Assembly (NCBI RefSeq): GCF_037975245.1
Contig: NC_092577.1
Coordinates: 26,967,398 to 27,031,397 of the forward strand
Length of the DNA: 64,000 bases
DNA from: Apostichopus japonicus
Lineage: Eukaryota > Echinodermata > Holothuroidea > Aspidochirotida > Stichopodidae
Direction of reading: 5' to 3'
Below, piece by piece: positions 4,020-63,388 of this stretch. The translations under genes and the position numbers were made by a program. Position 1 is the stretch's first letter. Every line of letters starts with the position of its first letter. The notes under the pieces are model-generated. The model saw only the letters and a list, made by a program, of their open reading frames with translations. It did not search any database and had not been told where the DNA came from.

Positions 4020-7000
4020 TTACTCCAAAGATTTGGATATTTTTTTCTTTTTGTACGATCTCATAGATCTCATTAGAGAGTCTATGGCGGTAGTCGCTTG
4101 TTTCCATACGAACGTCCTACGCGGTATCGGAGTCTGTGTTATCTTGAACAGCTCGTTGTATAGACAGGTCATACCGGATGATGGTAGGCGCGGCTTGCCG
4201 TGAGTGCCATTGCAATTACAGGATACCATTTCCTCCACGGTGAATATGGCTTTCGCTAGTTTACGTGCAAGTGTCGTAGGTTTGTCTGCATATATCCACA
4301 GAGACCGCAGAAATTCTTGTGGTAGGTTGGATGCTGTGGAGTGTTCGGTTGGTGACTTCGTATGGTTCAGTGATGTTGGAGATATGTGAGATGATGTATG
4401 GGGAGGTGATGTTAGTAGGGAAGATGATGTTATGGGTGGGGGAAGTGATGTTAAGGGAGGTGATGTTGGTAGGGAAGTTGATGTTAGGGGTTGGGGAAGT
4501 GATGTTAGGGGAGGTGATGTTGGAAGAAATGATGATGTTAGGGGTAGGGCAGGTGATGTTAGAGGAGGTGATGTTAGGGGAGGTGGTGTTGGTAGGAATG
4601 ATGATGTTAGGGGTAGGGGAGGTGATGTTAGGGAAGGTGATGTTGGTAGGGATGATGATGTTAGGGGCAGGGGAGGTGATGTTAGGGGAGGTGATATTGA
4701 TAAGGAAGATAAAGTTAGTGATGTTAGGGTTGGAGATGGTGATATTGATATTGGAAATGATGATGTTAGTGGAAGTGATGACGTTAGAGGTTGGGGAGAG
4801 GATGTTAGAGGTTGGGGAGAGGATGTTAGAGGTTGGGGAGATGATGTTAGAGGTAGGGGAGATGATGTTTGTGTGGGGTGTGAGATGGAAGATGTAGATG
4901 GCTCAAAGTAATCAAGTTCTGAAGACGTGAAAAAACTTTCTTCATCATGGAGAATGTTCATGCTGTCTGCAAACACATCACTTGCTTGTTCCGACTTATT
5001 CATCATCGACATGATAGTGGACACCATGCTTTTAATTTCATTCTGTCCACGAATGAAGTTGGACTCCATCCTTTCCATCCTCTGTTCGACCAGTTCCAGC
5101 CTTTGCCAGAGGTTCTGCTTCCCAACTTCCTCTGTCCTACCGACATCCACCGCTTCTTCTTCATGCCGTGTACAATCCACTTCATTAGAAGCGCTGGCTA
5201 TGACACCAACACTTCCTTGATCCCCAACGGTCTTTTCTTTCAAGGTTTGCTTTGCCTTTTTTATAGCGGCGCTGGAAACAGATGGCAGTTCCACTGTCCA
5301 ATTACTGTTGCTGTCAGAGACAGCGGCAGACTCTCCTATGCACAGCACTTTCGCTCCCTAGTGAAAAAAAAATGCGTAAGCAATCTCTTAATATATAAGG
5401 TGGGCAACACTTTTTACAAACTACACTTAAAATAAGAAATCAAAACAAACTCAAGTAATTCTGGGAACAACTCAGACTTCAAATATCAACCGTGGTGGTA
5501 TATTTCGGCTATATAACACAGACACAATACCATGCACTAACATGGCTTCATGGCTCATTTATGAATATTCATAGTTGCTGTATAACAAAAGGACACAAAA
5601 TTAGAAAAGCATCATATCAGACGTTTCAACGCATAATTCAGCTTTAAGCGGAAGACCCCAACCTGCCTTTTTTGTTTGTTGCTGGAGTTAAACATATCAA
5701 AGTAACGATAGGTCTTCTCTAGGCTTTTCTAAGATACCCCCATCCCCTAATAAGCCAACTAACCTTCTTCCTTACGTCTACTGTTGACCTTTTTTTCTGA
5801 CGAGGCTTCTTTGGGATGGTCAAATGTGCGACCTGAAACAATAATACAGTATTTGCTATAGAGGAGATTACATGCTTTAGACATGCTTATAGGACAACTC
5901 AAATTACTCAAGGTTCAAATTTAACATATATGTGACAGAATTAAAAACTACTCTTATTGATCCAACTCATATCTTGTTTGGTTGTTGAGATCTAAAACGT
6001 TAAAATGTATTCATGATTTGTTGTGATGGCATAAAGGAACAACATGTAAAATGGAAGGGTGCACGAACCACTCATTCCCTCCCCGCACCCATATACCGAC
6101 CAGCAAATTCCATTAGGTGCATAAAAACACAAAATGCAATGATGTGCTGCTATAGTTTCCGTGTATGGCAAGCCATATGGGACAAACACTGCATAATATA
6201 TCCGCGTATAAATTGGAATTTATACGCGTATTAATTGTAATATATACGCGTATATATTATGAGCCAATCATATGGCTTAAATATATCCGCGTATTAATTC
6301 GAATATATCCACGTATTAATTCGAATATATACACGTATTAATTCGAATATATACACGTATTAATTCGAATATATACACGTATTAAATAAAATACATATGG
6401 AGATTAAATCCAATATATGCACGGATTAATTAGAATATACATGCGAAAAAACATTTCCGCTCTTGCTGTGTACATATACCAACGATAAATGTTTTGGCGG
6501 GCTCGCGAGATCGCTTCAAAAAGCGAAACTTGTACAACACATGTGTATTTGAATTAATACGCGTATATATTCGAATTAATACGCGGATATATTATGCGGT
6601 GTTTGTCCCACATGGCTTGCCATATCCGTGCGGCACTCCCATTGATCACAGTCTACCCACCGTCCCACCTCGATAAAGAAAATAGTGCATTTTGTCCTTC
6701 CCCCTTTATCTACCCTTCACAGTGGTTTAAAAGTAAACTATCAACATCTTTTGGAAAACACTTACGTCATTAACAATATTCAAATGGTTATCTTCTACAA
6801 ATGATGGTGGTTGGGAAGGGGACGTTGGAGAGACATCGGTATCGGAGGAGTCTATGTAGTCAGTCAACAGTTCATAACGTATAGTCTGGTTGCAAGCTGT
6901 CACTATCTGTGAAACAAATGTTGCGGATCAATGTCAGCACCATACTGCAATATAGAGTAGTTTACCTACAGTTTTTGATTTATTCATTGATAGTACACCA

Positions 7001-8690
7001 ATTGGTACTGGAGCGAGCGCAGACAAGATCCCTCCAAAACGGAATAAGGCCATGTTAATAAAACCAGAAATACAACATTCAATGTGGTTCATTCGCCACT
7101 GTTTGGGATTTTTTTTTCTCATTGAGAAGTACAGTACGTTTGTGATAACCTCTCATCACTGTTTACGTACTCTGCATGCCAGTCTACACAGTGTGTCACA
7201 TTATCTATTCAAACCAACCTACTTAAGCTGAGCTTATGACCAGGTTCTAACCACAAATTTGATTGGACCCCTTCCTCCAAGAATATTTAATAAAGTAAAT
7301 CATTTGGGGTGGCAAACCATGCATATCCATATTGAACTTACAAATGCAGATTCTCACCAACCGTATGTGATATTGTAAGGTTCCCACCCATCATGACTAT
7401 GCATACATCATAATGGCACTACAAAAACATTATAGATCATTCCTGGATCATGTGCTATCATTGTAGTAAGTATCAACTTAAACTGATCTACGGTTCGTGA
7501 GATTTCGTTTTACAAGTTAAGGCGTCACATACAGTACTTACATACCCATATACACACAGTACATACTTTATATACATACATTCCATGCATACACATATAC
7601 GCGCCTACTCGAATGGGCCATGATGCCTCAGGCATAACTACAAAAAAGGGCATGGGCTTACATGGCCTCTGTATGGGTCGTTGATATGAACGGTTAGCCG
7701 ACCTCCCGTTGACCCATCGTTCCTTTTCACGGTTACGCTATCCGTACGCTGCAATTTGCTGGGATGCTTAGATACAGGCCAATCTTGTTTGCGTGGTTGT
7801 ACTCTTAAAGGCCTCTTAAGCAGGTGCTCCCTAACCTCATTGCGAGGCAACCAGGAAGTGGTAGAATAGCCTATCCATCTGTCACACGAATAAAATTAAA
7901 AAGTTTAGCCTAATTGTGAAAATATTAATTATTGAAATGTGTTCTTACATAAACTATAGTACGCAATCGAAAACAATATGAAAAGTTAATGCTAACTGGT
8001 AATTATATCGTCCAAATGATTTGTACACTAACATGACCTTACGGAGAAGTTTTCCTAAGTGTCACTTACAGGAATTATCGACCAATGAAAATAACACGTA
8101 CTTTGTATCAACTGTTAATTTACGTACTGCTTTGAGGAAAACAGTGAAGAGTTTTGATTTTAAAATTCAGGAGGGATTTTATATCACTCCCATTGCGTTG
8201 AAATTTTCAGTCGGCAAAAATTCAGAACACATCGCTGCTTTTGCAAATTAGGTAAATAACTTTCAATGATCGATCAGTGGGAGGAAAGGGGTGGGGGGGG
8301 GGGGGAGACCCAGAAAGCACTGGCAAGAAAAACATCCGTTGCCACACCACTATCAGAGAGTAAATATGTATGTTAACTGTTTCAAATATATTGTTTTTCT
8401 AGGATAAGCTATTAAAGGTACAGTATCAACGTAATATATATTAAATACTGTACTACGCAAAATCTTATTTACAATTGCACATTTTGATTTACAATGTGCG
8501 GGTCTACAGCACGTTATGATAACCGATAACCCTGATGTCTATGCCTGGTTATAGAAAGTAGAATGAGAGAAGAGCGAAACACAAGAAAAAAAATATTTAC
8601 TTACTTGACGTGCACTTCTCCATTTCTTTCTTCCAGTTTTTTACAAAACATCCAAATTCCGCTTGCTGTATCTAAACCCTGCAACTTCAT
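4020..8690 (-). CDS. BEN-domain protein, five exons
   Basis: Exons in transcript order: 8605-8690, 7662-7878, 6766-6906, 5764-5832, 4020-5357. All junctions are GT-AG and the phases agree, giving 616 residues. The start is the ATG at 8688-8690, reading MKLQGLDTASGIWMF. Exon 4 carries a basic stretch, KKPRQKKR (about 156-163), that could be a nuclear signal. A probable coiled coil lies at about 247-282. A Ser/Thr/Pro-rich low-complexity linker follows at about 325-510. The C-terminal 90 residues match the BEN pattern: LARKLAKAIFT, then VEEMVSCN, GKPRLP, and a helical end with AIDSLMRS. BEN domains bind DNA or chromatin partners, usually as transcriptional repressors; that role here is inferred. 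The gene is transcribed away from the Tc1 transposase, 1 kb distant, and both lie inside one pair of inverted repeats. It could be a host gene or transposon cargo. Confidence 0.75.
4380..4880 (-). repeat. Degenerate coding minisatellite in the BEN gene
   Basis: This part of exon 5 encodes imperfect repeats of the form TSPPLPLTSS and LPTSPPLTS. On the plus strand it reads as GATGTTAGGGGAGGTGATGT-like units of variable length. The unit is degenerate, so the linker has probably grown and shrunk by slippage. Long open frames on the opposite strand here are a by-product of the stop-free repeat. Confidence 0.75.
6164..6624. mobile_element. Fold-back MITE with about 50-bp TIRs and a 6-bp TSD
   Basis: The left end begins TATGGCAAGCCATATGGGAC. 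The right end is its inverted near-copy, with differences at one position in ATRTGGG and one in CACYGC; similarity extends about 50 bp, to CGCGTAT. TCCGTG flanks both sides (6158-6163 and 6625-6630), a 6-bp target duplication. The interior holds a tandem repeat of about 22 bp (TATTAATTCGAATATATACACG type) at 6285-6385. It has no coding capacity. It sits in intron 3 of the BEN gene. The superfamily is not recognised. Confidence 0.8.
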
Positions 8691-9219
8691 GTTGGTTCAA
8701 TTTTAACTTGCCGCGAAAGGAAACCTGCGTATCGCTGAAGTTTCTGGTTATGATTATCTTGTTGCAGTTAATTTACAACTTTGTGTTTCACTGATGCGCT
8801 TATACAGGACAGTCCTCGGACATTAAAATACTTTGCTCTAATATCGATTGCTGCAGGCTTATCAATATCAGACTTATCAGTAATATGGGTGGAAATATAC
8901 AAACGAAGACTTCATGAACAGAACAATTTACAACCTTGCAAGACCATGGCGAGTAATGCCGTTTCATTTTAAATTGCGCCCTTTTATCCCACTACCATCT
9001 CATATTCACCATCTGGGGGGAGGATTTTTTTTTTGGTTCTTTTGGCAGATCGCGGGAAAGTCGATCTTGACGACAGAATTACACTCCTTTGATGGCCTTG
9101 TTGAATAAAACAATCTTCATCTCCAAACCCAAATGAACCTGCGTGGGTGGTGTCTTGAAGTTTCTGGGAGTTGTAACCTATTAATTGCCTTATAATCGCT
9201 AATACAGTCTGCAGCTATA

Positions 9220-9241
9220 ATTGATAACGTACGTTATCAAT
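9220..9241. repeat. Perfect 22-bp palindrome
   Basis: The half-site ATTGATAACGT is followed directly by its exact complement ACGTTATCAAT with no spacer. This could be a binding site for a dimeric protein or a short cruciform. It is placed between two divergent genes. Confidence 0.8.
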
Positions 9242-9337
9242 TTATATCCGTAATGAATCAACGTAATCACGATTACTACGCACCCTAAAGTTGCCATATT
9301 TTGGTCACATCGAATCCTTCGATGGTGCTATATGAAA

Positions 9338-9499
9338 ACATCATAAGTCGTAAGGCTGTCAGCAAATAGCGCATGTATTATTGCTGGAGGTTATAAAAGT
9401 ACGCTCTTGATTACTCGTAATAAGACTTGAACCAGGAACATCGTAATTCGTAAGACAGCATGTGTTGTTGCTAGACGCTAAAAAAAAATACGCTCTTCG
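9338..9499 (+). repeat. Two-copy direct repeat upstream of the transposase
   Basis: Copy 1 (9338-9413) and copy 2 (9438-9499) share CAT, TAA and TCGTAAG blocks, then ATGT, TTGCT, and finally TACGCTCTT. Copy 1 contains TATAAAAG just before TACGCTCTT, while copy 2 has an A-run there. This is consistent with a duplicated core promoter or a duplicated transposase-binding site. Confidence 0.6.
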
Positions 9500-9677
9500 T
9501 TAAGAATCGCCCGAGGGCGGACAGAGGTCGTCATTCTCTACATCAATTCATTAAAAAGGGGCGGGTTTTAAATGATTAATATCGTCTGAATACAGGGAGG
9601 TCTGATGTTTCGATGAGAAAATTGGAAGTAATGCATTCAGCGAGTTACAATCACCAACTGAACTTCGTTCGCAGAAA

Positions 9678-10697
9678 ATGGCACGACTGTCGCTTACACT
9701 CCGGAGGGAAATTGTTACCTTATCTGGGCTCGGAAATAGTATTTCCAAGATAAGAGCAATTTTAGCTGAAAAGGGATATTTTGTCGACCCGAAAACAGTA
9801 AGAAATTTACTAGGAAAGTGGGAGACACATGGCACGATTAGGGATCTGCCTCGCCGCCGGCCACTTCCTAAGTTTGGTCCATTGCACTTGAGTGCAATGG
9901 ATAAACTCATTGATGCGAATCGTGAGATAACGTCCATTGGCATCCAGAGGAAGCTACGTGAGGAGAACTTAACGATCAGTACAAGTTCCATTCGGAGGGT
10001 TCGACAGAAAAAGCTAAACTGGGTGTGCACTAAGCCAAGATACGCTCAACTGATTCGCCGCGTTAACCAGACCGCTCGTCTAGAATACGCAATTCGTTGC
10101 ATTGAAAATAAGGAAACCTTCGCCAACGCAATCTTCACCGATGAATGTTCTGTGGAATTAGACCACACGGCCAAACTACAGTTCAGGAGGAAGGGGGAAG
10201 CTCCGGAACTGATCGGAAGACCAAAGCACCCAACCAAAGTTCACGTTTGGGCAGGTATATCTGTGAGAGGTGCCACAGATATCGTAATTTTTGACGGGAT
10301 CATGCGCAGCGAATTTTACTGCCAAGAACTTCTCCAGAATGGACTGCTGCCGTTCGTGAGAAAAGCCTTTCCGGATGGTGGTTATCGCTTCATTCAGGAT
10401 AACGACCCAAAACATACGAGTGGCTTCACAAAATCTTTCATGGTCGCAAACCAGATACCATGGTGGCCCACGCCAGCCGAGAGTCCTGACTTGAACCCCA
10501 TCGAGATGCTCTGGCATGAGCTGAAACACTGCCTGCGGTCGGAATTGAAGCCATACACACTAGACGATCTAAAGCGCATGATCACCTTTTTTTGGAAAGA
10601 TAGGGTTACCCCAGAAAAGTGTCAAAAGTACATCGGACACATCCAGAAGGTTCTGCCAGTTGTGCTGGAAGTCGAAGGGAAGGCCACGGGACATTAA
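9678..10697 (+). CDS. Intact Tc1-type DD34E transposase
   Basis: A single uninterrupted 339-residue frame, the usual length for Tc1 transposases. Residues 1-115 form a bipartite helix-turn-helix, paired-like DNA-binding region with a basic linker, LPRRRPLPK (about 58-66). The catalytic triad is visible. D155 lies in AIFTDE. D241 lies in FIQDNDPKHTS. E276 lies in SPDLNPIEMLWHELK, with 34 residues between the second Asp and the Glu. All three residues are present and there is no stop or frameshift, so the enzyme could be active or recently active; it would cut and paste DNA at TA sites. No inverted repeats of its own are seen within about 0.5 kb on either side. The nearest candidate ends are the 33-bp repeats at 790 and 14426. 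The 3' untranslated region is unusually short and ends in a histone-type signal. Confidence 0.93.
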   Translation: MARLSLTLRREIVTLSGLGNSISKIRAILAEKGYFVDPKTVRNLLGKWETHGTIRDLPRRRPLPKFGPLHLSAMDKLIDANREITSIGIQRKLREENLTISTSSIRRVRQKKLNWVCTKPRYAQLIRRVNQTARLEYAIRCIENKETFANAIFTDECSVELDHTAKLQFRRKGEAPELIGRPKHPTKVHVWAGISVRGATDIVIFDGIMRSEFYCQELLQNGLLPFVRKAFPDGGYRFIQDNDPKHTSGFTKSFMVANQIPWWPTPAESPDLNPIEMLWHELKHCLRSELKPYTLDDLKRMITFFWKDRVTPEKCQKYIGHIQKVLPVVLEVEGKATGH

Positions 10698-10730
10698 ACC
10701 ACCAGGAGCTCAACCCTCTATATATCAAAC

Positions 10731-10766
10731 GGCCCTTTTCAGGGCCATCAAATACTACTGAAAGAG
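10731..10766 (+). promoter_or_regulatory. Histone-type mRNA 3' end: stem-loop plus downstream element
   Basis: GGCCCTTTTCAGGGCC (10731-10746) is a perfect 6-bp stem with the four-base loop TTTC. It is preceded by AAAC and followed by ATCA. It fits the replication-dependent histone stem-loop consensus (GGCYCTTTTCAGRGCC) at every position. GAAAGAG at 10760-10766, 13 bases after the stem, fits the core of the histone downstream element that pairs with U7 snRNA. The stem-loop begins 33 bases after the transposase stop codon, a normal distance for histone genes. No AATAAA lies nearby. Cleavage, SLBP binding and lack of a poly(A) tail are inferred from the histone system. Confidence 0.85.
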
Positions 10767-13700
10767 CGACTTTTTCTCCTCTCTAGAACATGCTTTGTGT
10801 CTTGTCGTTGTTGTAATGTTTTCTGTTTTGTGTCATGTAAAATCATAAGGGAAACGAATGATGGTTGTGATGGTGGAAGGGGCGGGGTTGTCAACTCGGA
10901 GAGGGACAGCTTTTGATCATTAAATTTGACGTACAGTATATTGCGAGAAAAAGTTTTATCCCCGTTTCCAAAGTGTTGAAAAAAAAAAAACAGTCACTCA
11001 TGTGTTGAAAATTTATTATTTACATAAATAAATACAACTTTTGTTGGTAGGCTACGTGTATATAAATAAACACAAGCTCTATTGTACTGTAGGTCTTCAC
11101 AAGTAATGTAAAGTATTATTATAGTATCAGAGAAAAAGAAACTACCGGTACATCAGCAAAACATGTACAAATCATGCTGAGATATGCTGAGAAATTAATC
11201 CTCTGAAATATATTTTTTGGGGGTGGGGGGGGGGGGCGAGTCCCCACCCGGGCATCGTTGTCATGACGCCACTTTCCATTGGTGCCATGGAAGTAAAACT
11301 TTATTTAACAAAAATTTAGTTCTTGTTGCAAACTATTAATTCGTACTAACAAAATAGGTTTTTACTACAAAGTAGACATTTTTACTTGCATAGGATTAAT
11401 ATGTTTCTATAATATCCTGCCCCATTTGTATATCAAAAAACTTAGGTGCTGTCCACACTGTTATGACTAAAATTTACATTTAGCTGACAGAATACTGTAA
11501 ATCTCACATCTGAACGTCTTTTGTTTTATGCGGGATGCCCCCCCCCCCCCCCCCGCCAAAAAAAAAAAAAATACACAAAACTAAACGCAGAGGCGGGTCA
11601 TAGAACAACCAACGAATGCGCCAAGTAAAACACGTATATGCATGGGCAGGTTATAGACAACGGGAAGCTGCTATATTCCCTGGACGGAACACAATGTCTT
11701 AACAAAACACCTGGTTACTTTATTTAAAAATTAAATTCCAAATATGCCACTATCAACGAAATTATTTGTCTTTGTATGTACAGTATATTCGAAGTTGCAA
11801 GGCCTAACCTTTAGTCCCGGTGGGGGCAAGGGGTGTTATAGTTACACTTTCCTAAGAAAATATTCTTAACAACCTCGATTTGATAGCTGACACGTTTGCT
11901 GTGTGCACATGCTGATTACGCGCTCATCATCAATTCATCATGATCACAGGCACTACTCTGTCGGCCATGATCCAATCATGACCGTTCACATGGAACAACG
12001 CGCCCTAGGTAGGGTCATGGTCGGATGACGGAGTCGTCATCAAGCGTGCACTGCAATGTTTGTCTAGAAAAGTGAAATGATTCTGTTCAAATGCAGTTAT
12101 CGCCCAATTGTTGATGACGCGCTCGCGATCGGTTGAATTGCCGTCCCTTGAAAGGATTATCTGGTGGCCATCTGTATGTACTTTTAAAAAAAAAGTATGT
12201 AATTTTTAGACTGTGCTGACAAACTTTGAAGGCAAAAAATTCCCGAATTATTGAGAAACGATTTATTAAATTTCTCGCTGAGAACTCTTTTCATATGATC
12301 AAGTGAAGTTAATCATGAGATGATCTCCGTTCATATGGAAAATAGGAAGACGGGGTATTCAAGAGCGTGTAACCCATGGGAACACATGAGTTATTTCACT
12401 GTTATAATCGACCCCAAGTGACATGATGTGTTTACTTTTTGGCAAACACCTCTTGTGAACTATTTTATATCAGGAAGGGGGTGGGGGACTATTAACAGCG
12501 TCCCGAAACTTTTGTGAAACTCAATAGATATGGAACTACGTCGAGTTTGTTATTCACTTCCATGTTAGATCCTTAACACATTCATTGTATTGTTTACGGA
12601 TTAGCGCTATCTGACAGTAGCGCTGAACTTCACACTTCTTGCAAGAACACAAGTACAGTTGTCGACTTTTGTCGGCAGGACGTGGATTTTCTAAAACTAA
12701 TTTTAATGCGCTCTATCCACCTGTGTCATTAATGAGCTTCTCTGACGTAAGCTGCAGTACGTAATTTCGCTATACCAGTTCCGCGAAATTTATTTACACA
12801 GTAAACATCGTTCATTATGTTTTCTTTCACAACGAATATTCAAAGTTGTGCTCCACACGCTTCACAGATATTTTATGTTGTTCATTTTCAATTCTACTTT
12901 AAAATTACATTTTCGAACGATGCATTGCACGCCTTATCAAACATTCCCGATTAGTAAAACTAAGGAAGGATATTCAAATATATATATGATTTTATGAGGT
13001 GTTCCACTTGAAAAACGATGATAAAACCGAAAAACAAAACATTTACTTCTCATGTGACGCATACCGGGAGATTCATAAAAACACCCCCTTCTCATTAAAT
13101 TAAATTTACATGCCGTCAGGCCATTTGAAAGCCCTCCCCAGTAATGTTTGATCAGCTCTTCCCAATATTCAATACTCAAATAAGCAATGAAAATATATTC
13201 ATTTTCCCCAGATTCTCCCCAACGGTGGGCCCCAAGTCACTGCTTTATTTTCTTAGTAACAATTGTTTGCAACTCTCTTGCTGGCCAGGTGTTTTCAAGT
13301 TTTATTAATAGCACGACTTCTGATTGGTTCATTCAAGATAAACTTTTTATCCCTGCTGGATTGTTCTACTTACATATATATGAATGAATATTTGGTTTTC
13401 AATTAACTTAGTTACAGGTTACATCCATTCCATTACGAACAGTAGGGGTAAAAAATGTTTGCTTCTAGAGGCAGCCAGACAAAGGTTCTGCAGTGCTAAA
13501 CCCCCACGAAGATAAATACTATGCTAAATAACAGATGGTAGGCGTGAATTTGACAAAACCAGGTTTCTGATTGGACTAAGCCTCTCAAAAAAGTTTTGTC
13601 GCTGGGGATATCCAGGGTAGGGAATTCACATGTAAGCAGCATACTGTAGGTGACCCAGAACCAGGCTGCGACCTTAATTACCAGGGCAGTCCATCTGCAT

Positions 13701-14426: not shown

Positions 14427-15114
14427 TATGGTTTCATTCATGAGTTATTTAGTTGGTTTCTGAAAAATGAAGTCAACCCGATGTTGGGAAAGGCTGAAAA
14501 AGAAAATCCTAAACATGGGACTTTTCGCAAAAGGCGGTATTATGATCACGATCGATGATCAGGTGATTCACAGTGACCTGTGACTTCATTATTATGATGA
14601 AAAAGTGAGCTCGGTGTAGACTGTACTTCAGCTGTGTGCACAGACTGTGTTAGATTCTGATAGGTTGGAGGCCATGTTTTTTTTGGCGCAGTAGGCCAAC
14701 TTCAATGTATCAACAAATTTTGAGGCCAACTTTGAAACTCATGCGATACAGTCAACATTAACACTGCAACAAATATGGGTCTAAGCCAGACATGGGACAA
14801 TAAGCTCTCATCGATTTTTAAACATAACGCAAGTTATATAACATTGAAAGGGAAGAGAGGAGATTTGAATCACTGTGTGAGACATTCAACAGTCTAATTT
14901 TAATTAGGTGTTATTGATCCTGCTTTTTCTTGTTGATTAGTGAAGCCAATTGCCCCAATATAAATTATGGAAAATTTAAATTTACAGAATTACGGGGAAA
15001 AATGTGTATATCAGTGGTGAAGTTAATTATCTATTTAAGTCCTGAACATTACACCAGAAAATTAAACTAAAATAACATTTATGCTGACATGAAATGTACG
15101 CACAGCTCCATACT

Positions 15115-16710
15115 GTACAGTACACTACAGAAAATATCACCACAGTGATGTCATTCACTGATCTGAGTGCTGAACAGTACACTACAGAAAATATCATCAC
15201 AGTGATGTCATTCACTGATCTGAGTGCTGAACAGTACACTACAGAAAATATCATCACAGTGATGTCATTCACTGATCTGAGTGCTGATCAGTACACTACA
15301 GAAAATATCACCACAGTGATGTCATTCACTGATCTGAGTGCTGATCAGTACACTACAGAAAATATCATCATAGTGATGTCATTCACTGATCTGAGTGCTG
15401 AACAGTACACTACAGAAAATATCATCACAGTGATGTCATTCACTGATCTGAGTGCTGAACAGTGCACTACAGAAAATATCATTACAGTGATGTCATTCAC
15501 TGATCTGAGTGCTGAACAGTACACTACAGAAAATATCATTACAGTGATGTCATTCACTGATCTGAGTGCTGAACAGTACACTACAGAAAATATCATTACA
15601 GTGATGTCATTCACTGATCTGAGTGCTGAACAGTACACTACAGAAAATATCATTACAGTGATGTCATTCACTGATCTGAGTGCTGATCAGTACACTACAG
15701 AAAATATCATTACAGTGATGTCATTCACTGATCTGAGTGCTGAACAGTGCACTACAGAAAATATCATTACAGTGATGTCATTCACTGATCTGAGTGCTGA
15801 ACAGTACACTACAGAAAATATCACCACAGTGATGTCATTCACTGATCTGAGTGCTGAACAGTACACTACAGAAAATATCATCACAGTGATGTCATTCACT
15901 GATCTGAGTGCTGAACAGTGCACTACAGAAAATATCATTACAGTGATGTCATTCACTGATCTGAGTGCTGAACAGTGCACTACAGAAAATATCATTACAG
16001 TGATGTCATTCACTGATCTGAGTGCTGAACAGTACACTACAGAAAATATCATTACAGTGATGTCATTCACTGATCTGAGTGCTGATCAGTACACTACAGA
16101 AAATATCATTACAGTGATGTCATTCACTGATCTGAGTGCTGATCAGTACACTACAGAAAATATCATTACAGTGATGTCATTCACTGATCTGAGTGCTGAT
16201 CAGTACACTACAGAAAATATCATTACAGTGATGTCATTCACTGATCTGAGTGCTGATCAGTACACTACAGAAAATATCATTACAGTGATGTCATTCACTG
16301 ATCTGAGTGCTGATCAGTACACTACAGAAAATATCATTACAGTGATGTCATTCACTGATCTGAGTGCTGAACAGTACACTACAGAAAATATCATTACAGT
16401 GATGTCATTCACTGATCTGAGTGCTGAACAGTACACTACAGAAAATATCATTACAGTGATGTCATTCACTGATCTGAGTGCTGAACAGTGCACTACAGAA
16501 AATATCATTACAGTGATGTCATTCACTGATCTGAGTGCTGAACAGTACACTACAGAAAATATCATTACAGTGATGTCATTCACTGATCTGAGTGCTGAAC
16601 AGTACACTACAGATAATATCATCACAGTGATGTCATTCACTGATCTGAGTGCTGATCAGTACACTACAGAAAATATCATTACAGTGATGTCATTCACTGA
16701 CCTGAGTGCT
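15115..16710. repeat. 57-bp minisatellite, about 28 copies
   Basis: The unit includes CAGTACACTACAGAAAATAT, then TGATGTCATTCACTGATC and TGAGTGCTG. Because 57 is 3 x 19, a frame open in one unit stays open through the array, and the plus strand reads as 568 residues from 15094 to 16800. Copies differ at a few sites (GAA/GAT, TAC/TGC, ATC/ATT/ACC). Most of these changes alter the amino acid, so there is no sign of selection on a protein. Plain spacer DNA flanks it on the left and the TGACC-rich repeat on the right. Confidence 0.9.
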
Positions 16711-16789
16711 GTTACAAGGTCGTTGCAGTGTTTGCAAACTCCTAAATTTGTATCAATTACGGAGACGAAAAAACGATGTTTTAATGTTA

Positions 16790-17165
16790 AACTCAAATGA
16801 CCTTTGCCTTCTACCAAATTCAATAGGGTTCCTCACCAAGCTGGATCTGCATAACAAGTATGATGTTCAACAAAGATGTACTTTTTTAGTTATCATGTTT
16901 ACAAGGTTTTCAGACAATGACCAAGATGTTAACTTTAAATGACCTCTGGCTTCGATCAATTTCAATAGGGTTCTTGGACTCACCAAGAAAGATCTACATA
17001 CCAAACTCAAATCATAACTATGATCAATGTACCTCTGAGTTACAGTTTAGAAGGTTTTCAGACTTGACCTCTGTTGACCCCAAATGACTATTGGCCTCAC
17101 ATAAATTAATGGGGGATGGATCCACATACCAAGCATTCAGTTAATCCACAATGAACTGTTTGAGT
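16790..17165 (+). repeat. Dispersed TGACC-rich repeat, copy 1
   Basis: Contains about three internal units of roughly 120 bp, with recurring AAATGACC, TCAATAGGGTTC, CACCAAG, GTTACA and AAGGTTTTCAGAC words. The same words recur at 18030-18340 and 38290-38720. No coding potential is seen. Confidence 0.6.
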
Positions 17166-25700: not shown

Positions 25701-28700
25701 GAAATAGCTCCAACTCAGGTCCCAAAATATCCTTTTCAGATCGAAAGTACAGCCCAGAATATGTCACTCGCAAAACCAGTACTTCCAGAGTTCTCTCATT
25801 AGATAAAGAAAAATGGAGGACTCATTTTCAGCGAAGAAAAGGCCATTTCGAAAAAGGATTCTTTACTCCCAGTTACAAGTCCTACTCATCTGTTGGTTAT
25901 GTGGAACTGAACCCTCAACAACTTGTTCTTAATGTCTTTGATGACTGCTTGAATAAAAAGGTATGACATGTAGGTCAATGTAAACTTTGAACACATAGTC
26001 GTTTACTATTATTTGTTGTTTTCTAGCTCATTCCCAACCATTATGTTTTGAAAGTTTCTTTTTGCTTTTAGTTTAAGGTTTGCGTCCATCAGTTACTTTT
26101 TGTACTCTATACTTTCAAAGAGGATGTCCAATTTATTCACATTTTATAGGTATGAGTTAATAAGTCCTATAACGTGAAATTCCTCAAATCAAGATCCTCC
26201 TTTGCATTTCTTTGATAATGTAGAAGCCTATACCAGCCATTCTGACTGGTAAGCTGCCCGTCAGAACACCTCCATGTCAAGATATATTCAACAAAGACAA
26301 AAGAAAGGTAATCGTATATCTGATGTCAGTGTGAATCTAAGTGTTGAGGATGTTGAGAATAGTGATAAAGTGTTATATGGATATGTGTGTTATGGACATG
26401 ATATTGGCCATGGTGTAATAGTTTTGCACTTGGTATGTAGGATACTAAGGTTGTAGAATTGGACTATACATTCATGACATTATTTAAGGTTCATTGTTCA
26501 TATTAACCCTTGAACTCTTCCATGAACAGCTAGTACCATCAGTACATGTCCATCAGATTAAGATGAATAAACTGAGTAGAAGAAACTGTTTTTATTGAAC
26601 TTATATACATAATCCTCATAAGGAAACTTATGCTGATTGTGATTTGTTAACTCATTGGGTCAATTTATTACAATCTCTCATTTTGCGACTGTCCATGATT
26701 CACAATGAAAGAATATCAGAGAGAATATGACAAATTACTGGAGATGTTGCGATACATGAGCAATTTTAACTATCAATTTGTTGAGACTAAAACTTAACAC
26801 TGATATTTATGCAACAAAATTATGAATATTTATTTATTGTTCATCATCTCCTTAAATGATATGTATGATATAGATTAGCACAGATACAAAATACTCTACC
26901 TTTAGTTTTGATAATGCTAATGAATATTAGTAAGTGCCTTACTCAAATGTTGTATTACTAATTAGTAAGTTTATCATGTTATTATATCTGAACCATATCA
27001 TCACTAATCATCACTTTATTAATGTTATCCTTGACATTGGCTCTTCATCATGTTATGAAGTTGTTACTAATTGTTATGTTTATCATGTTAATTATGATTT
27101 GACATTTTATTAATTGGTATTAAATGTTAGTTTTCCCTTTTTCCTATATAGTCTCCTAGTCACTTTCACCGTAGTTCGACAGGAGGTCTTGACTTCAGTG
27201 ATGAGGAGGTGGATTCAGCAGGTTTCTCCTTCATAAAGAAGAGCTTAATGGACTCAGAGAAAGTAATGATTGCAAATAGAGGTGGACAGCCATATGATCA
27301 GTGCATGAGGGATATACAGGTGAGATATCCCTAAAGACATTTACCCATTGATGGGACGGTTATTTGATCAGTGCATGAGGGATATACAGGTGAGATATCC
27401 CTTAAGACATTAACACATTGATGGGACAGCCATATGATCAGTGCATGAGGGATATGCAGGTGAGATATCCCTAAAGACATTAACACATTGATGGGACAGC
27501 CATATGATCAGTGCATGAGGGATATACAGGTGAGATATCCCTTAAGACATTAACACATTGATGGGACAGCCATATGATCAGTGCATGAGGGATATACAGG
27601 TGAGATATCCCTTAAGACATTAACACATTGATGGGACAGCCATATGATCAGTGCATGAGGGATATACCTGTGAGATATCCCTAAAGACATTAACACATTG
27701 ATGGGACGGTAATTTGATCAGTCCATAAGGGATATACAGGTGAGATATCCCTAAAGACATTTACCCATTGATGGGACAGTTATTTGATCAGTACATGAGG
27801 GATATACAGGTGAGATATCCCTAAAGACATTAACACATTGATGGGACAGCCATTTGATCAGTACATGACAGTTATATAGGTGAGATATCCCTTAAGACAT
27901 TAACACATTGATGGGACAGCCATATGATCAGTGCATGAGGGATATACCTGTGAGATATCCCTAAAGACATTAACACATTTATGGGACGGTTATTTGATCA
28001 GTGCATGAGGGATATACAGGTGAGATATCCCTTAAGACATTAACACATTGATGGGATAGCCATTTGATCAGTACATGACAGTTATACAGGTGAGATATCC
28101 CTTAAGACATTACCACATTGATGGGACAGCCATATGATCAGTGCATGAGGGATATACCTGTGAGATATCCCTAAAGACATTAACACATTGATGGGACGGT
28201 TATTTGATCAGTGCATGAGGGATATACAGGTGAGATATCCCTTAAGACATTAACACATTGATGGGACGGTAATTTGATCAGTCCATAAGGGATATACAGG
28301 TGAGATATCCCTAAAGACATTAACACATTGATGGGACGGTTATTTGATCAGTGCATGAGGGATATACAGGTGAGATATCCCTTAAGACATTAACACATTG
28401 ATGGGACGGTAATTTGATCAGTCCATAAGGGATATACAGGTGAGATATCCCTAAAGACATTAACACATTGATGGGACAGCCATTTTATCAGCTATGATTA
28501 GTGTGTATACAGGTGTGTATAAGGAATATACCAGTGAGATACCTCTACACAACTAAACACATTGATGGAACAACCAATTGATTAGTGTATAAGAGATATA
28601 CCGGTGATATATATCTACAAACCTTAATCCATTGATGGGACAATCATTTTATCAGTACGTAAGAAATGTGTATTCATCTTTATAGTACTTTGATACTTAT

Positions 28701-37039: not shown

Positions 37040-40000
37040 TCAATCTTGCATAAAGCAATTCTTCAATATTTCATATGCTGCATTTATGATCCCCCATGAG
37101 ATCAATGCTCTGCTATAGTTCAAATGAACACCTAAAAACATATTCCTTAATCTGCAGTTCCTTTCTTTGTATATTTGTTTAAAAGTGTAAACAAATGACC
37201 TAAATTCCCCTCCAATTTTTGATTGCATCCTTGACTTGACAACATTGACTGGGTACCAGACGGTGCTTATAAATGCACCTGTCACTGCACCAGCCACAAA
37301 GTCATTTCTCACTTTTCTTGCTGAGGTTTTTGCCTCTGGTAACACAGAGTTAACTTTCCCTCTAAGACTAAAAAAGACAGCATTGCTAGGTCCATTGCGT
37401 AATAAGATGGCAGTTAATCCTCGATAATATTCACCTATACCATACATCCGCAGCACCCTGAAGGCATGAATTGTGTTTGAGAATCTATTAGCACGGCGCT
37501 GATCCTGCAATATTGTCTGGACTCTTTCAAAAGGAACCAAAATAGCCTCCGTTGTTCCTGCAAGATAGAATATGAGAAACTTTCAAATTCTGTTCCACAT
37601 TAAACAAGTAAACTATATACCACTTATGTCATATTAATTTCCAATGCTATGCACTACTTCTAACCACTATCGAAAAATACAAATGTATGCATAAAAGCTT
37701 CAAATAATACCTATTCATAGATAACACATGGGTTCATTACAGTTTCAAACCAAATCAGGTTCTGGGCAAATGAAGTACAGTACATTGATTGATTGATAAA
37801 GAGCTGATGGGTCAGCTCAACGTCAATCACTCGATATATGCAAGACCAGACTCAGTGCATTTCTCAGTCTGAGGTATTTGTCCTCTGACTCATAATGACT
37901 ACAGTAATTACACTTAGCCTCAGATATGAGGACTTGATGTCTGCAGGCAATTTAACAACCAACAGAGACTCAAACTTTTGGACATTGACTGATTTCTACT
38001 TTGGTTGAAATACGGTAGTTCTCAAAATCAACTCTACGTCAATTATCATACTAAGTCTTGTACAGAGTCTTAAAATGTGACTTCAGCAGAAGACATTTGC
38101 CTTTAGTTTCCAATCTGCTTCATATACCTTCATGAAACAATTGCTATACATATTATTGATAAACTACTGATACATGGAGATAATAGGCTTTCTGCACAAA
38201 GTGTGTCCAAATACCAGAAAGCCAACAGGCTTTGTGATACAGGCATTGCCAAATTTTACATGAGAACATCTAATGTAAAACTGCACACACCATTTTCCAA
38301 GTTTGACCTCACATGACCTTTGACCTCCACAGAAAATTATTAAGGGTTTTCATAATCACTAAGGTACTGTAGATCCACCTGCAGTACAAAGCATGAACTT
38401 CATCGAACCTTTACATTTGGAGTTATCTTGCTTACAAGGTTTCAGACTTCTGTTGACCTGAAATGGATTTTGAACTCCAAAGAAAAATATAGCGTTCTTG
38501 TACAGTCAATTGACAGGGGCAGATCTATGTGCAAAGTACATAAAGTGTTAAGTTCATCCAAACTTCACTTTTGAGTTATTACGTTTACAAAGTTTTGAGA
38601 CTTTGACCTCAAATTACCGTTGACCTTGACAAACCAAGATAGGGTTCTTGTACTAAATAAGGTGGATCCACATGCCAAGAAAATATGATGTTTATTGACC
38701 TCTAATTATTGTGGAGAATGAAGAGCAACCGAAGTGAAATGAAAATGCACAAAGGAGTAGAAAAAACTAAAATCGGGGCTAATTGGAAACTTCATAAAGA
38801 CTTAATGTACAAGGGCACAAAACCTAGCATACTGTAAGTTGCAAGAAAAAAGTACCTATGCATTCCATACATTTGTGAACAACTGTCACATGATCACTGC
38901 TGCAATAAAAGAATCTAGGAATTCATTGGGTGTACTGTACTCCTGGTTTTGCACTTGCCTTCCTCACACAAATGATTTGGAAACAAATGCAATGACTTGC
39001 TCAAGAAGTCATACTCAATACCTTAACTAATCCTCCACAGGACCAACAGGCTGATACGTCTTTGGTTTCAATTCAAACTTCGTAAAAAACAATCAAAATA
39101 TTGGCAAATAAGTTGTTTACTTTGGGCAGATTATACATGTTATACTTCAAGGAAAAACAAAACGTGGGTACTGCAGTGTAGCTTAAAAAAAGGTTTCTAT
39201 CACTTTCAAGATATTCACCTAGACACAATATGCTTAAACTCTGGAATGCCCACTTGAAGGCTTCAGAGATGATGACATCATCTCCTCCTCAATGCAGGCC
39301 TAGATGTGAATCTAAACCCATTGTTTCATGAATTTTAATCATAAAAACAAATCAAATATAATTTTGTGGAGTTGAATGGAATTAAACAAATAATGCCTGG
39401 ATGTGTCATTTCTGGCCATCTAGGTGTGGTTTTAATGAAATATTTCCTACTGTGTCCAACCATGGTTGGGCTGCATTGCAGTGTATACAGTGTCCTGGAA
39501 GTTTTCACCAATTTTTGGTAACGCTATGGTTGCCAAAAGAGTAGCACTAGACTTAACACTGCAATGCCGCAAAGATAGTAAAACTGAGGAAGGAATAGAC
39601 ACAGACATATTCTCAAACTAATATCTATATTGGCATAACTTAATGGCACTCTAGCCATGTGGAACTGTTCCACAAATTATTTTGCCACCCTCCCTCTTCC
39701 CCCACCCTCCCTCTTCCCCCACCCCCACGACTATAGGTATGTAATTCGACAGTCATGTATCTAGACAAAGCTTGAAGATGTGGACCAATGTGAGCCTTTT
39801 AAAATCCTCTGAAGTTCACATTTTCATCTTTAAACTTCAGTTTCGGGTTAAGGAATGTTATTTAACAATGTTTAAACTTTTTCTTTAAAACAAGAAGGTG
39901 TTACCTGACAAAATGGCAGCAGCATGAAGAGTTGCTGATTGAGGAATGAATGGACAGTTGCTACGTAGGATCCTTGAATATTGATCATATAAGCCAAACA

Positions 40001-40256
40001 TTAAAGAAACTGAAAATGTCTTCTGAAGAAGAGGAGGTAGGACTCCTCTGTACAGCTGACTCAAGCCCTCCTTCTTGACTTGCATAAAAGCACTGTTGCC
40101 AGAGATCCCAAAAACTTGCTGTCGAAATATGACTTTGTGAAGAGGGAAGGTGATAATGATATTGAAGAAAGCTGCGCCCCCTCCACAGGCATATTCCACC
40201 CAATCTGGTGAGTGATCCATCAAGGGAACTGTTACATCCTCTCTAGAAGACTCCAT
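37040..40256 (-). CDS. SLC25A51: Mitochondrial NAD+ carrier, SLC25A51/52 type
   Basis: Two coding exons, 39905-40256 and 37040-37557, joined in frame (TCA G / GA ACA), give 289 residues; the human proteins have about 297. Three mitochondrial-carrier repeats are visible, each with a family-specific signature: FPLHKVIFRQ, VPFERVQTILQ and YPVNVVKSRMQ. Blocks typical of SLC25A51/52 include LYRGVLPPLLQKT, the TTEAI turn, GIGEYYRGL, IGGEF and HLNYSRALISWGIINAAYE. Family members carry NAD+ across the inner mitochondrial membrane into the matrix. The start MESSREDVTVPLMDH has no cleavable presequence, as expected for carriers. The single 2.3-kb intron carries the TGACC-rich repeat. Vertebrates have two paralogues, and which one this corresponds to is not decidable here. 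Confidence 0.93.
38290..38720 (+). repeat. Dispersed TGACC-rich repeat, copy 3, with a DR1-like site
   Basis: Three or so units of about 130 bp with GTGGATCCACATGCCAAG, TTGACCTCAAATTACCGTTGACC and AAGTTTTGAGACTTTGACC words. TGACCTTTGACCT at 38314-38326 is a perfect inverted reading of AGGTCA-A-AGGTCA, the DR1 nuclear-receptor element. It lies in the intron of the NAD+ carrier gene. A weaker relative with GGGTGGATCCATGTAACAC lies at about 40380-40545. Confidence 0.65.

Positions 40257-49621: not shown

Positions 49622-63388
<13,767 letters not shown>

Follow-up and report, generated by a model that had tools for sequence, protein, structure and literature searches.

Why should a transposase gene end in the way that a histone gene does? 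In the sea cucumber Apostichopus japonicus, the open reading frame of a Tc1-type transposase is followed closely by a sequence that resembles the 3' end of a replication-dependent histone gene. We analysed this locus together with its surroundings, a stretch of 64,000 nucleotides that we call the window. The arrangement raises the questions of what the gene encodes, how far its 3' end agrees with that of histone genes, whether other transposases share it, and what it could do for a mobile element.

The coding region is a single uninterrupted open frame with a TAA stop codon at 10695-10697, and is thus intronless as the initial annotation had described it. In a Pfam scan, the product matches DDE_3 (PF13358) with an E-value of 7e-13 and HTH_Tnp_Tc3_2 with 28 bits, the latter under its cut-off of 31.5. 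The catalytic residues are D155, D241 and E276, and the 34 residues between D241 and E276 give the DD34E spacing. Across an alignment of 48 sequences, D155 and E276 are invariant and D241 is at least 90% conserved. The catalytic core of Sleeping Beauty SB100X also matches the transposase (E 8e-22). The AlphaFold2 model (mean pLDDT 90.3, pTM 0.66, no residue below 50) has an RNase H-like core and six helices within residues 6-111, the N-terminal DNA-binding region. This is apparently a normal Tc1 transposase, intact to all appearance. It shares with the Tc1 group (DD34E; Sleeping Beauty, Tcb2-annotated) the DDE_3 domain, the DD34E spacing, the helical N-terminus, a length of about 340 aa and the single exon, but no account of a histone-type 3' end in that group turned up in the literature search described below, and no TIRs were found around the copy.

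The source species itself provides a close match: the product of ORF 9678-10697 aligns from end to end, with 98% identity, to A. japonicus P0002, annotated as 'Transposable element Tcb2 transposase'. The 7 differences all fall in residues 1-73 (9678-9896), the other 266 residues being identical, and may be due to allelic variation, to a second copy or to the assembly. Three methods revealed no TIRs around the transposase ORF that were above chance or flanked the ORF, and no TA-anchored ungapped inverted pairs between 7001-9677 and 10747-13500 exceeded those of shuffles. The protein is a Tc1 transposase, and no complete TIR-bounded element containing this copy was found. Hence, the copy at 9678-10697 may be a remnant that no longer moves, or may have been domesticated. 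The CpG content is uninformative, as the ORF lies within a CpG-rich stretch resembling other stretches of the window.

The rest of the window holds repeats and other ORFs. A 57-bp minisatellite (15113-16711; 28 copies, 97% match) is open as a repeat ORF of 568 aa (MSFTDLSAEQYTTENIITV), and the Pfam matches at 15094-16797 resemble repeat artefacts. Long minisatellites also occur at 58663-60202, 27284-28491 and 56171-56737, with periods of 67, 70 and 79 bp, respectively, and 91-99% match. On the minus strand, ORF 4023-5348 has a weak C-terminal BEN-domain match (E 0.003, below cut-off) and, in its middle, low-complexity sequence that derives from a tandem repeat. ORFs at 37043-40256 and 54765-61074 on the same strand match the mitochondrial carrier (two) and FAD_binding_2 (two) families, and are probably exons of two genes.

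Past the TAA of the transposase gene come exactly 33 nt, then GGCCCTTTTCAGGGCC, then ATCAAATACTACT and then GAAAGAGCGAC (table 1). GAAAGAG begins at 10760, 13 nt 3' of the stem-loop, and belongs to a putative U7-type downstream element, GAAAGAGC. The spacer, the stem-loop of histone consensus and the GAAAGAG at this distance had all been proposed in the initial annotation, and all three hold. Rfam agrees on the stem-loop: RF00032 matches 10726-10772 on the plus strand over 46 of 46 model positions, with 35.6 bits against a gathering score of 34. When the 64-kb window was compared with 4227 Rfam families, this match had an E-value of 1.3e-6 and was the only one to reach the gathering score of any family. 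Cleavage would be expected a few nucleotides 3' of the stem, which would place it in the AUCAAA. The UGAAAGA of the window fits the sea urchin-type HDE, and UGAAAGAGC is HDE-like by comparison with anti-HDE motifs of U7, so that it is a candidate for pairing with U7 snRNA. AAAGAGC is common to this element and to the mammalian HDE, given as AAAGAGCUGU in PMC4117776.

The absence of AATAAA nearby, another feature of the initial annotation, stands for the canonical hexamer, the first of which is at 11027, about 280 nt past the loop. It does not stand for the variant ATTAAA, found at 10919 and at 10693-10698, where it spans the stop codon. Polyadenylation could therefore be possible from the hexamers at 10693, 10919 and 11027. 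Overall, the gene resembles replication-dependent histone genes (RF00032, HDE, SLBP/U7) in its stem-loop, flanks, HDE-like element, short post-stop spacer and intronless ORF, but it encodes a transposase and not a histone.

Table 1. Transposase gene and elements of its 3' end, in window coordinates.
Feature	Position	Strand	Details
Tc1-type DD34E transposase ORF	9678..10697	+	339 aa; profile match, alignment, structure model
3' UTR spacer of 33 nt, stop codon to stem-loop	10698..10730	+	
Histone-type 3' stem-loop GGCCCTTTTCAGGGCC	10731..10746	+	6-bp stem, 4-nt UUUC loop; Rfam, fold
AUCAAA, predicted place of U7-dependent cleavage	10747..10752	+	inside Rfam match
HDE-like UGAAAGAGC, putative U7 snRNA pairing site	10759..10767	+	12 nt after stem

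Could such a 3' end be a coincidence? Short hairpins are common to all genomes, and beyond this nothing specific speaks for a chance resemblance. A first-order Markov model predicts 4.7e-4 consensus stem-loops per window, counting both strands, and only 1.6e-6 with GAAAGA behind them. The flanked pattern was present in 0 of 100 shuffles, and the hairpin folds with a z of -4.2. A pattern scan for the stem-loop followed by GAAAG gave 0 matches in viral contigs and 41 in 257 Gb of prokaryotic contigs. Among these 41, AAA or AAC precedes the stem in 4, AYC follows it in 0, and both occur in 0. They lack histone-like flanks, and hence serve as a control for chance. The Rfam score, the Markov expectation, the shuffles and the prokaryotic control all put the match far beyond what chance would produce. 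It is very unlikely that the stem-loop and its flanks arose in this way, and we give a fortuitous resemblance to a histone 3' end practically no weight.

No DNA of relatives was found in viral contigs, prokaryotic contigs or phages. We used the proteins of relatives as a view of their DNA and deduced the stem-loop by back-translation. The rationale is that loss of the stop codon leads to translation of the 3' UTR, so that a stem-loop located there must appear as a predictable peptide. One such protein, P0073, was noticed during a scan of 121 proteins for long or stem-loop-like tails. It ends in ...EREGRATEF-W-SHQQRKTQPKGSFKSHQAHKSHANK, and its tail, PKGSFKSHQAHKSH, contains PKGSFKSHQ, a peptide that can be encoded by the Rfam consensus ccAAAGGCUCUUUUaAGAGCCACcaA. 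Another, P0130, was obtained with a padded query that admitted longer relatives alone and that included the P0073 tail. It ends in ...GAATGY-W-PPACTAFLTSRRSTNGSFRSHQINKSH, with the tail TNGSFRSHQINKSH. By core score alone, P0130 ranks 25 among the 120 matches listed, and hence it was not the tail that brought it into the list. A search with the tail of P0073 on its own returned P0073 only. Pairwise alignments show these proteins to be divergent: P0073 is 47% and P0130 41% identical to the window protein, and 45% identical to each other.

We scanned 230 proteins including that of the window (85,377 residues) in three frames for any back-translation compatible with a 24-nt pattern, AAN-stem-loop-AYCAR, which was composed once both tails had been seen. 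Only P0073 (no mismatch) and P0130 (one mismatch) fit it with at most one mismatch, and 23 further places have two or three. Random tails of 40 codons (37% and 48% GC) reached one mismatch in 1 of 80,000 cases. The stem-loop would start 30 nt past the lost stop in P0073 and 45 nt in P0130, compared with 33 nt in the window. Both tails contain AAR-AGY about 11 nt past the stem when back-translated, so that AAGAGC is possible at the place of the HDE. The window's own read-through would give NGPFQGHQ (NGPFQGHQILLKE), in the same frame as P0073 and P0130. The fourth stem pair is C-G in the window, whereas the codons of P0073 and P0130, as back-translated, fit U-A, as a compensatory change would produce. 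When the scan was restricted to the 16-nt stem-loop under strict pairing, it matches P0073 and a chance coding place at residue 82 of P0153, and misses P0130, in which an arginine codon would imply a U-G closing pair or another mismatch.

How many relatives could have revealed a stem-loop by this approach? For the census, 49 of the 230 proteins (those below 480 against the P0073 core) were dropped; the pattern scan kept them. Most of the remaining 181 are uninformative, with 148 ending at or before the normal stop and 33 being longer. The latter include a sister group of 14 with a coded extension and 19 others, 11 of which extend 20 or more residues beyond the stop, long enough for the stem-loop. 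It is carried, in any frame, by 2 of these 11. In 7 of the long tails the canonical end is lost before the stop, and since they diverge there the residues that follow need not be the element's 3' UTR. P0032, with 20 residues, has an altered canonical end and no stem-loop. The canonical end is kept and the read-on is straight in 4 of the 11. The expectation of the initial annotation that other copies conserve the stem-loop is borne out in two of these four, P0073 and P0130, but fails in P0174, with 49 residues past the stop and no stem-loop, and in P0176, with 35. P0176 is an annotated Branchiostoma gene model and may be spliced.

The sister group (P0156, P0157, P0161, P0164-P0167, P0169, P0170, P0172, P0173, P0178, P0180 and P0181) has three named members, all molluscs (Patella and Mytilus among them). 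Its C-terminal extension often reads [KRN][RK][LIV]FxE[RPS]SxGKS. Some of these extensions resemble the stem-loop in another frame, with two to eight mismatches, and three members are two mismatches away from it in frame +1, followed by Lys-Ser. The extension is possibly a 3' UTR turned coding. We set it aside as a relic of the stem-loop, an ordinary protein motif being more likely.

The distribution of the stem-loop bears on its age. We placed it on a tree of 83 rows, built by a quick method with SH-aLRT support only. P0001, P0073 and P0130 lie in three separate subclades of a group of 57 rows (support 90), whose named members include Holothuria leucospilota, Exaiptasia, Paramuricea, Actinostola and Branchiostoma. 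Among seven rows labelled for the stem-loop, the tree needs two changes, of which the well-supported branches force only one. One gain followed by losses and several gains both fit the three points. A single origin is the simpler reading, because the spacing (33, 30 and 45 nt) and the orientation agree. Since two divergent relatives appear, at the level of protein, to encode the same stem-loop, the histone-type 3' end has probably long belonged to a clade of animal Tc1 elements and was not recently captured by the copy in the window. The idea of a captured histone 3' end, put forward in the initial annotation, is thus strengthened by P0073 and P0130 as regards its use by Tc1 transposases, but its history now looks different, an inheritance of the clade and not an event in this copy.

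An alternative on this point is that the transposase inserted next to, or became fused with, a histone 3' end from the sea cucumber's own histone genes, the stem-loop being a passenger of host origin. The match is indeed a complete histone 3' end with its flanks, and such ends are known to come from histone genes. The initial annotation had pointed to a truncated histone gene at the edge of the copy as the observation that would explain the arrangement away. Searches of the 64-kb window by tblastn with five histone sequences gave only noise and no such gene: the best match (E 0.044), to a stretch of 30 residues from H1, lies in the 3.5-kb neighbourhood, and the remainder have E-values of at least 0.62. 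In the window, 25 ORFs reach 100 aa, and Pfam scans of 14 of these gave no histones; the matches were to the transposase, the weak BEN domain, the mitochondrial carrier, FAD-binding and repeat artefacts. Together with the recurrence of the arrangement in the two divergent relatives, this makes a local acquisition decidedly improbable.

Two other explanations concern what the gene and its 3' end now do. The gene might be a domesticated, single-copy host gene that inherited the histone-type 3' end of its clade and now works for the host in S phase. Its intact ORF without detectable TIRs fits this idea, as does the fact that P0002, identical over residues 74-339, is the only protein named A. japonicus among the best 120 of 1626 matches. 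Identity to P0003 is also uneven, falling from 88% over residues 119-339 to 59% over residues 1-73. However, most listed matches are without an organism name, and annotated proteomes usually omit masked repeats, so the listing does not establish a low copy number. The catalytic triad is also intact and relatives are numerous. We regard domestication as unlikely. It is also conceivable that the stem-loop is inert, a fossil or a hairpin with another role, and that transcripts are instead polyadenylated by way of ATTAAA (10693 or 10919) or AATAAA (11027). The hexamers are there, and the report that histone mRNAs become polyadenylated in Drosophila Slbp mutants (PMC2781718) implies that such sites can serve as a fallback. 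Yet one would expect disuse to erode a perfect 6-bp stem, its flanks and the HDE, and here they are complete and matched in two relatives. An idle stem-loop thus seems quite unlikely to us.

The interpretation that we prefer is that the mRNA of this Tc1-family transposase is made like a replication-dependent histone mRNA, with a 3' end that is old in the animal Tc1 clade. We consider this likely. In the histone pathway, as outlined in PMC1924863 and PMC4117776, SLBP acts on the stem-loop and U7 snRNP on the HDE, and cleavage takes place past the stem. For the transposase gene, the stem-loop would be the binding site of SLBP, and the GAAAGAGC element would pair with U7 snRNP. The pre-mRNA would then be cut just past the stem, yielding an mRNA without poly(A) whose stability and translation would be largely limited to S phase, and which might be stored in eggs, as histone mRNAs are. 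Transposase would be confined to the time when the sister chromatid can refill the donor site, would be removed afterwards, and would find unreplicated targets ahead of the fork while present. The analysis establishes the sequence elements in the window and that they are no product of chance, and it finds matching 3' ends in the two divergent relatives at the level of protein; processing, S-phase timing and benefit to the element are what we infer.

IS10 is linked to the cell cycle by its methylation state. With the P element, which is found near replication origins, it shares a proposed gain from transposition in S phase (PMC3687335), a gain that would also apply here; the P element acts through target choice according to the same source, whereas in A. 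japonicus the link would be the 3' end of the mRNA. That account has the copies of cut-and-paste elements rise when the sister chromatid refills the donor site or when the element jumps ahead of the fork. It presents synchrony with S phase as an advantage to such elements, states that for mariner this is unknown, and mentions a counter-example, in that a lengthening of G1 by the Sleeping Beauty transposase has been reported (PMC3687335). A broader claim is that a wide animal Tc1 clade, whose named members include echinoderms, cnidarians and amphioxus, has ancestrally used histone-type mRNAs to make its transposase, and that its transposition is wired into the SLBP/U7 programme of S phase. On this claim our judgement is evenly balanced.

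The histone 3' end has been regarded as exclusive to histone genes, and a description from 2009 states that SLBP had never been linked to the regulation of non-histone genes (PMC2781718). A literature search over titles and the openings of abstracts, with most subscription journals outside its reach, returned no transposase gene with a histone 3' end. If the broader claim is true, these would be the first non-histone protein-coding genes known to use the SLBP/U7 pathway for their normal 3' end. A Tc1 clade with a conserved histone 3' end would supply natural non-histone substrates for SLBP and U7, and would put a 3' end module on offer for limiting transposase expression to S phase. It would also answer the question of cell-cycle timing for some Tc1 elements, and by a simple mechanism. 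The suggestion is that these jumping genes may set their own timing by cell division.
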